Source of the DNA: Ideonella livida | GTDB taxonomy: Bacteria > Pseudomonadota > Gammaproteobacteria > Burkholderiales > Burkholderiaceae_C | Direction of reading: 5' to 3' | NCBI RefSeq assembly: GCF_010499455.1 | Contig: NZ_JAAGOH010000006.1 | Span: 124,001 to 188,000 of the forward strand | Length of the DNA: 64,000 nucleotides | Notes under the pieces: generated by a model | What the model saw: only the letters and a program-made list of their open reading frames with translations | What the model was told of the DNA's origin: nothing | The model's database searches: none | Shown here: positions 43,704 to 51,776 of the stretch, piece by piece | Position numbering within the stretch: position 1 is the stretch's first letter | How the letters are laid out: each line of letters starts with the position of its first letter | Position numbers and translations under genes: made by a program

Positions 43704-43731
43704 AAAAAAAACCGCCGGGGCTGCCGGCGGT
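43704..43731 (-). terminator. Attenuator (intrinsic terminator) upstream of aroG
   Basis: On the minus strand ACCGCCGG and CCGGCGGT (43711-43718 with 43724-43731) close a five-base loop and run directly into eight T (43704-43711). It lies 68 bases before the aroG start and 28 bases after the leader peptide stop. Within the leader RNA the CTGGCGG segment (43792-43798) can pair with the CCGCC of the terminator arm, giving a candidate antiterminator (inference). Confidence 0.88.
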
Positions 43732-43759
43732 CTTCTGGGGGTGTTCGCTTCGCTGTTTC

Positions 43760-43840
43760 TCAGGTGCGCGCGTTTGCCTCTCCAGCCGCCAGACGGGGCG
43801 AGAACCAAAAGTAGGCAAAGAAAAATCGCGAAGCGCGCAT
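43760..43840 (-). CDS. Aromatic-rich leader peptide of aroG (26 aa)
   Basis: A 26-codon frame encodes M-R-A-S-R followed by FFFAYFWF and then S-P-R-L, ending in TGA at 43760. Eight residues (6-13) contain five Phe, one Tyr and one Trp, a run far above chance. Its place between the promoter-like sequence at 43849-43857 and the terminator at 43704-43731 is that of a transcription attenuation leader, like pheL of E. coli. No ribosome binding site precedes the ATG, and the candidate promoter implies a near-leaderless message. Stalling at these codons when charged aromatic tRNAs are scarce would allow read-through into aroG. Confidence 0.85.
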   Translation of the reverse strand: MRASRFFFAYFWFSPRLAAGEANART

Positions 43841-43848
43841 AGCCGTTG

Positions 43849-43857
43849 AATGTAGCA
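43849..43857 (-). promoter_or_regulatory. Candidate extended -10 promoter for the aroG leader
   Basis: TGCTACATT on the minus strand matches the extended -10 pattern TGnTAnnnT. It ends eight bases before the leader ATG, so transcription would start about two bases before the start codon. No good -35 is seen, which an extended -10 can tolerate. Confidence 0.45.
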
Positions 43858-51385: not shown

Positions 51386-51776
51386 GGGCAGCAAGCCTTC
51401 TTCAGATGCAACGGGCCGCGCCCGCACCGGCCAGCAGGCCGAGGAGCGGGCCGCGGCCTTCCTGCAGCGGCAGGGCTTGCGCCTGCTGGCCCGCAATTAT
51501 CGGGTGGCCCTGGGGCCTTACCGCCGCGGCGGCGAGATCGACCTGATCCTGCAGGACCGCGATGGCACGGTGGTGTTCGTGGAAGTGCGGGCCCGGGCGG
51601 CCGGGGCCCGGGTGGACGCGGCCGCCAGTGTCACCGCCATCAAGCAGCGCCGTGTGGTGCATGCGGCCCAGCATTACCTGCAGCGCTGGCCCCGGCTGCC
51701 GCCCTGCCGCTTTGACGTGGTGGCCGTTGACGGCGAGCAGCTCCAGTGGCTGCAGGCGGCGTTTGAGGCCGGCTGA
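51378..51776 (+). CDS. yraN: UPF0102 protein YraN
   Basis: 132 residues of the YraN family: [26 protein letters not shown] (about 17-42) and [23 protein letters not shown] (about 53-75), a nuclease-like fold (PD-D/ExK: D57, E71-V-R) of unproven role in DNA recombination or ribosome-related control. AGGAGAGG sits just upstream of ATG 51378. The start overlaps the rsmI start by eight bases in opposite direction, so both promoters must lie inside the neighbouring gene. The diaA gene follows after 86 bases. Confidence 0.9.

Follow-up and report, generated by a model that had tools for sequence, protein, structure and literature searches.

Attenuation of transcription by leader peptides rich in aromatic residues is a classical form of control, exemplified by trpL and pheL. 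In the pheL-pheA system of Escherichia coli (Rfam RF01859, Phe_leader), a Phe-rich leader peptide and alternative hairpins precede a gene of the aromatic pathway, as they do at the locus described here, and in the textbook layout the pheL open reading frame (ORF) stops short of its segment 2. Aromatic synthesis is entered through 3-deoxy-7-phosphoheptulonate (DAHP) synthase, for which control by TyrR and TrpR in E. coli is the textbook case. Attenuation in proteobacteria is reportedly the subject of a 2004 survey by Vitreschak and colleagues (cited in PMC11878033). Among the titles and the first lines of abstracts in the open-access literature, we found no paper on attenuation of an aroG that stands alone in beta- or gammaproteobacteria; an earlier mention in the 2004 survey or in subscription journals is possible. 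In Vibrio, we take aroA(I-alpha), going by its nomenclature, to be a DAHP synthase gene.

Three described or predicted systems can be set beside the locus. Passages in two papers describe an aromatic leader peptide, AroR, with the residues Phe-Tyr-Phe, that attenuates the DAHP synthase gene aroF in Corynebacterium glutamicum (PMC4046766, PMC11802643). This organism belongs to a different phylum, three aromatics are named in its leader compared with seven in Ideonella livida, and we liken the two by description and not by sequence. Passages of another paper list database predictions of attenuators, in two Vibrio species ahead of aroA(I-alpha)-tyrA and in Bordetella ahead of a tyrA supraoperon (PMC1173090). 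The Vibrio operon is proteobacterial, but its attenuator is a prediction only, those passages give no leader peptide, the gene order is another one, and the likeness is again by description. In Sinorhizobium meliloti, according to the parts of PMC7298713 that we consulted, the first bases of the rnTrpL/trpLE(G) RNA are the leader ORF's own ATG, a start like the one that we predict for the aroG leader; it differs in carrying Trp codons and in preceding trpE(G), and the released RNA and peptide act in trans in that species. Known, then, are this kind of attenuation, one DAHP synthase case (C. glutamicum aroR-aroF) and a leader RNA that starts with its ATG (S. meliloti). What appears to be new, judged from the family libraries and open-access literature searched, is a widespread aroG leader, set apart by a start that is probably leaderless and by an ORF extending across the antiterminator strand.

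The window, that is, the whole 64-kb stretch of I. livida DNA that we analysed, carries four elements in order on its minus strand: an extended −10-like box, a leader ORF, an intrinsic terminator and aroG. The box, TGCTACATT (43857-43849), contains the −10-like hexamer TACATT (43854-43849) and ends 8 nt 5' of the leader ATG. The leader ORF, MRASRFFFAYFWFSPRLAAGEANART (43840-43760), has 26 sense codons and a TGA stop and is kept in relatives. Its control codons, FFFAYFWF (43825-43802), specify seven aromatics in eight residues and include Phe, Tyr and Trp codons; this is the frame that a first-pass annotation of the sequence, which makes no mention of the box, had reported. The same annotation had placed an intrinsic terminator with eight U ahead of aroG, and both were found. 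The terminator, GACCGCCGGCAGCCCCGGCGG followed by eight U, spans 43732-43704 (U run 43711-43704), and the 30 nt at 43733-43704 fold with −16.8 kcal/mol (z −3.7 against dinucleotide shuffles). The product of aroG (43635-42508; 375 residues) is a class I DAHP synthase according to Pfam (PF00793, E 1.7e-97) and NCBIfam (aroFGH, E 2e-165). The whole 137-nt leader folds with −59.4 kcal/mol (z −3.9). A generic consensus scan called neither a promoter nor a terminator at the I. livida leader; in our reading it missed the terminator because it needs T's directly after the stem, and the stem here continues into the U tract.

Within this leader, again on the minus strand, segment 1 (UUCUC..., 43804-43795) overlaps the last aromatic codon and provides the 5' strand of a hairpin, 1:2, whose 3' strand is GGAGAG (43783-43778); in it UUCUC pairs with GAGAG and encloses GGCGG. 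Segment 2 (CUGGCGG, 43792-43786) is the candidate antiterminator strand, segment 3 (ACCGCCGG, 43731-43724) is the 5' arm of the terminator, and segment 4 (CCGGCGG with the eight U, 43718-43704) is its 3' arm and U tract. The CTGGCGG segment had been proposed to pair with the terminator arm, and it is able to do so with CCGCCGG at 43730-43724. Segments 2 and 4 compete for segment 3, which makes the terminator and its GGCGG antiterminator mutually exclusive, overlapping pairings.

We consider it highly probable that the unit is a ribosome-mediated transcription attenuator controlling aroG; ribosome stalling and termination in vivo are what we infer from the parts, their conservation, the pairings and the covariation reported below. 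Transcription would start at or a few bases from the leader ATG, and translation of the leader would probably be leaderless. Under a shortage of charged tRNA-Phe, tRNA-Tyr or tRNA-Trp, a ribosome would stall in FFFAYFWF, cover segment 1 and open hairpin 1:2. The freed GGCGG of segment 2 would pair with the emerging CCGCC of segment 3, the 3:4 terminator would be blocked and aroG would be transcribed. When aromatics are plentiful, the ribosome would pass over segment 2, or hairpin 1:2 would re-form behind it, 3:4 would form and transcription would stop at 43704. On an I. livida leader without a ribosome, hairpin 1:2 would likewise favour termination.

The first-pass annotation had likened this architecture to pheL-pheA. 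The likeness holds for the attenuator parts, which are conserved before aroG, but not for the E. coli layout: the start is probably leaderless, the ORF runs past segment 2 so that the stop codon lies beyond the antiterminator strand, and the gene under putative control encodes DAHP synthase and is not pheA. The RF01859 model aligns over its full length to 43841-43702, with 18.5 bits (E 1.2) against a gathering score of 55, and so does not reach the threshold. No Rfam family reached threshold over the I. livida leader or in 10 loci with the leader, and Pfam and NCBIfam gave no match for the five leader peptides scanned.

The conservation of the leader was examined ahead of aroG in relatives. 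Among 60 related genomes, 56 had aroG-like proteins, and we read 50 upstream regions, namely those of all 36 same-family genomes sampled and of 14 from the 20 matching genomes in other families. An aromatic leader ORF and a GGCGG-T terminator preceded aroG at 42 of these 50 loci (36/36 in the same family, 6/14 in other families; the frame of one leader, L029, was chosen by hand). The rule of GGCGG followed by a T run would miss leaders with other terminators among the eight failures, and in one of the eight genomes (G057) the leader precedes its other, adjacent aroG copy (L088). A covariance model, R2, matched directly upstream of aroG at 58 of 80 named loci. Conservation of the leader codons in relatives was the test that the first-pass annotation had set for its reading, and at these 36, 6 and 58 loci the aromatic run, GGCGG and the terminator are kept.

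The R2 matches include Hydrogenophaga, Polaromonas, Roseateles, Rhizobacter, Acidovorax, Variovorax, Comamonas, Ramlibacter and Rubrivivax, among others, as well as Burkholderia, Caballeronia, Paraburkholderia, one Cupriavidus, Massilia, Rugamonas, Janthinobacterium, Oxalobacter and one Xanthomonas. R2 gave no match at the other 22 named loci, including two other Cupriavidus copies, three Polynucleobacter, Rhodocyclus, Thauera, Methylotenera, Shewanella and Erwinia, and one locus (L200) with only 25 nt upstream. By a separate ORF rule, one locus (L233) has an aromatic ORF without a model match and another (L174) matches the model without an aromatic ORF. On a quick tree of 78 aroG proteins (78 of 81 rows; L200 and L231 were left out, and L226 was dropped for a stop in its translated match region), leader presence needs at least 6 changes, compared with a shuffled mean of 18.1. 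The leader was found in both major aroG groups of the tree, and the nearest named rows to I. livida are Comamonadaceae and Sphaerotilaceae. As a separate observation, no leader was detected at two Cupriavidus aroG copies (L189, L201) and three Polynucleobacter copies (L190, L193, L195) in the largely leader-bearing half of the tree, and Cupriavidus lacunae (L239) has a leader before an aroG copy in the other half; losses or paralogue exchange are possible explanations for these exceptions.

A search that did not depend on aroG gave a similar association. A covariance model built from 42 leaders was run over 399 genomes of the order, where 165 had a match at E ≤0.1; by our count, 105 rows in 104 genomes and 14 families lay at E ≤4.6e-5. 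All 97 strong matches that were fetched, none of them from the training set, had aroG downstream on the same strand, and the remaining 8 of the 105 rows were training loci that had been located via aroG. At the six weaker loci examined (L155-L160, E 7.5e-5 to 0.0013), aroG was absent downstream in every case. Leader presence in the order is a lower bound, since each genome contributes only a few scored candidates and weak matches drop out. In 369 genomes of the class, R2 gave nine matches at E ≤0.001, of which three were in the family of I. livida, four were outside the order and two were weak and without aroG. All four strong matches outside the order lay upstream of aroG.

The aromatic run stands out clearly from chance in the I. 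livida leader. In the collection of 196 distinct leaders, 189 had at least five aromatics in eight residues, compared with 0.8% of 3,920 dinucleotide shuffles of the 196 leader regions under the same ORF rule; the 189/196 is not an unbiased rate, because an aromatic ORF, or a model built on leaders with one, was part of how the collection was assembled. The other seven had fewer than five aromatics in eight, two of them only one. The 23-nt aromatic stretch occurs a single time in the window even when three mismatches are allowed. A multi-copy repeat was rejected as an explanation: the 12-base core occurs once in the genome, where the covariance model also finds one leader copy. Three leaders of genus g91, family f44 (L139, L147 and L141), keep GGCGG and the terminator before aroG with maxima of 1, 1 and 3 aromatics in eight, respectively, and are perhaps decaying sensors.

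The composition of the leader peptides bears on which amino acids are sensed; the first-pass annotation had suggested that it may be all three aromatics. In 140 leaders (this count and model R2 include L157, a leader not associated with aroG, which is excluded from the 196), Phe makes up 19.6% of residues, Tyr 7.3% and Trp 2.9%. Phe and Tyr are each encoded by both of their codons, which points to conservation of residues and not of bases. Attenuation could answer only to Phe, in which case the Tyr and Trp codons would be of no consequence, a sub-question that does not compete with the attenuator reading itself. Phe is never absent from the 140 leaders, whereas Tyr is missing from 14 and Trp from 57, and C. 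glutamicum AroR, with Phe-Tyr-Phe, is reported in passages of a review to respond to Phe and not to Tyr (PMC11802643). On the other hand, the I. livida run also holds Tyr and Trp, and 77 of the 140 leaders contain all three. We think a response to Phe alone somewhat less probable than not; of the three amino acids, Phe is the likeliest to matter most.

Ahead of the leader start, a TANNNT box ending 6-10 nt upstream was found in 125 of 196 leaders, compared with 1.9% of 3,913 control windows, and TGNTANNNT occupied this position in 102 of the 196. A Shine-Dalgarno-like site was present at 8 of 196 leader starts versus 151 of 192 aroG starts. A −10 box at this distance suggests that transcription begins at or near the leader ATG, so that translation would be leaderless; in most leaders the mRNA is probably of this kind. 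By eye, the four leaders outside the order have TGTTATC(A/T)A at a similar distance from the start, and Burkholderia, Massilia and relatives have a TATA-like box about 30 nt further upstream, also without a Shine-Dalgarno sequence. Burkholderia cenocepacia and Cupriavidus metallidurans are known to have leaderless mRNAs (PMC4603805, PMC7563307, from passages of each), and a search listing for these two texts did not return aroG.

The −10 box also helps to weigh a simpler explanation, that the terminator merely ends the upstream gene and that the small ORF arose by chance or encodes a small protein with another role. The same-strand gene upstream in I. livida, which by its look we take to be sulfatase-like, ends only 20 nt before the leader ATG, and by a loose criterion 155 of 195 loci have a same-strand frame, open for at least 70 codons, that stops within 150 nt upstream. 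However, the leader stays with aroG while the upstream neighbour changes; an end that looks TldD-like by its motif was recognised at 38 of the 195 loci and not at the others. A terminator serving the upstream gene also fails to account for the −10 box that immediately precedes the ORF in 125 of 196 leaders, or for the conserved aromatic run and GGCGG. We regard this explanation as extremely improbable and continue with the attenuator reading.

The pairings of the proposed switch were then counted in two alignments, A1 and A3; the latter has 60 rows fitted to the covariance model, including two weak second matches on the other strand, and the rows of both share ancestry, so related sequences are not independent. 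The terminator is the most invariant element, with its 7 pairs formed in 99.0% (A1) and 99.5% (A3) of cells. The GGCGG core of segment 2 and CCGCC of segment 3 are paired in 99% of A1 cells, with slid controls at 22-66%, and one compensatory A-U was seen; 35 of 500 shuffles reach this core pairing, because the columns hardly vary. The segments were also counted in 189 of the 196 leaders, 7 having been dropped for a missing segment; core pairing in this set is biased upward, because segment 2 was chosen by complementarity. Here the first position flanking GGCGG forms G-C in 65 leaders and A-U in 58, and it is paired in 75.1%, compared with a shuffled mean of 60.4% and a maximum of 65.6% in 1,000 shuffles. 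The second flanking pair showed no covariation in the 189 leaders (73.0% paired versus a shuffled mean of 70.8%). Relative to the ORF, GGCGG lies in frame 0 in 53 leaders, frame 1 in 11 and frame 2 in 125; its occurrence in all three frames indicates that the RNA is kept and not the peptide.

Hairpin 1:2 was assessed by counts of pairs that we had named ourselves. In A3 (59 distinct rows) it is 84.7% paired and 4 of its 5 pairs show double changes; the figures for A1 are 85.8% and 3 of 6 pairs. Together with the terminator, 93.4% of A3 cells are paired, compared with 42-66% in slid controls, and 56 cells show double changes versus a shuffled mean of 19.6, a count that none of 500 shuffles reached; the corresponding count in A1 was above all 500 shuffles as well. 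The number of pairs with double changes did not exceed shuffles in either alignment (4 in A1, reached by 45 of 500; 6 in A3, reached by 87 of 500). RNAalifold on A1 predicted the terminator alone (8 pairs), with hairpin 1:2 absent, and the I. livida hairpin 1:2 by itself is no stabler than shuffles (z −0.28). Local pairing of GGCGG was not above that in shuffled flanks (0.69 versus 0.73), but the region around it was somewhat stabler than shuffled (−15.3 versus −13.5 kcal/mol). From this folding comparison, hairpin 1:2 may work by enclosing GGCGG and not by pairing each of its bases.

Folding of the switch was modelled with the RNA cut before segment 4 and a 26-nt ribosome footprint blocked, and the probability of the 2:3 pairing, P(2:3), was computed. 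In I. livida, P(2:3) was 0.00 without a ribosome, 0.98-1.00 with a ribosome stalled at any of the seven aromatic codons, 0.19 at the codon after them, 0.00 with the ribosome on segment 2 and 0.73-0.82 (two runs) on the stop codon. Over 189 leaders, the medians were 0.19 for free RNA, 0.98 for the mean of the aromatic stalls, 0.00 on segment 2 and 0.39 on the stop codon. Stalled P(2:3) exceeded 0.5 in 177 of 189; since blocking upstream RNA can only free segment 2, the model cannot fail the other way and supports the design without proving it. Free P(2:3) was below 0.5 in 108 of 189 and at or above 0.5 in 81, so the default-off state is not seen in all leaders. Segment 2 also stays available in many leaders when the ribosome sits at the end of the ORF, on the stop codon (P(2:3) >0.5 in 87 of 189).

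Equilibrium folding of the full-length RNA had been tried as a test of the switch and was uninformative, the terminator winning at every stall site in the 8 leaders used. With the terminator preferred at equilibrium in 8/8, a switch must be kinetic, chosen during transcription. The same result would suit a leader peptide sensor that acts mainly through translation, mRNA stability or a leader-binding protein and not through termination, as would the position of the stop codon, 6-34 nt past the start of segment 2 in the 189 leaders, which makes the classical geometry imperfect. Such a sensor is hard to reconcile with a strong U-tract terminator as the most invariant element of the leader. Furthermore, the U tract and the beginning of the aroG match are a median of 52 nt apart (range −40 to 157), so that a switch acting on translation at the aroG start would have little to work with. 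We therefore consider a sensor of this type very unlikely and retain transcription attenuation as the preferred reading.

A wider proposal, for which we see the case as evenly poised, is that the order as a whole shares an ancient aromatic sensor built on a small mRNA without a leader of its own. Transcription would start at the leader start codon and translation would proceed without a Shine-Dalgarno sequence. Each default termination would free a leaderless RNA of about 130 nt and an aromatic peptide, which could act in trans in the manner of S. meliloti rnTrpL, and a passing ribosome would erase the antiterminator because the ORF spans it. That the attenuator is conserved across 14 or more families of the order, and in a few relatives outside it, offers a hypothesis for how these bacteria set their aromatic supply. 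The covariance model could become an annotation family, and the leader is a promising system for studying how ribosomes on leaderless mRNAs couple to transcription.

Two further observations were made. Elsewhere in the window, at 51432-51520 on the minus strand, the Rfam Twister-sister ribozyme model matched with 34.3 bits against a threshold of 34. The match lies antisense to a reading frame that we take to be YraN-like, beside a gene that we likewise take to be rsmI-like, and is probably a chance match at threshold. The other concerns genus g73 (family f45, same order), where a second conserved aromatic leader with a terminator (L157 and L248-L260; best form FAYFYWYHTNVRYSFALV) precedes a gene for an uncharacterised protein of about 165 residues. 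Pfam gave no credible match for this protein in 11 members (best E 0.038), NCBIfam gave none for the single member scanned, and there was no PDB match to E 1. Of 21 genomes searched, 13 contained homologs of it, every one of them in genus g73, and the upstream regions hold an ORF with at least five aromatics in eight residues in 10 of the 13 and four aromatics in the other three. Judged from these leader sequences, it may represent an uncharacterised gene under aromatic attenuation.
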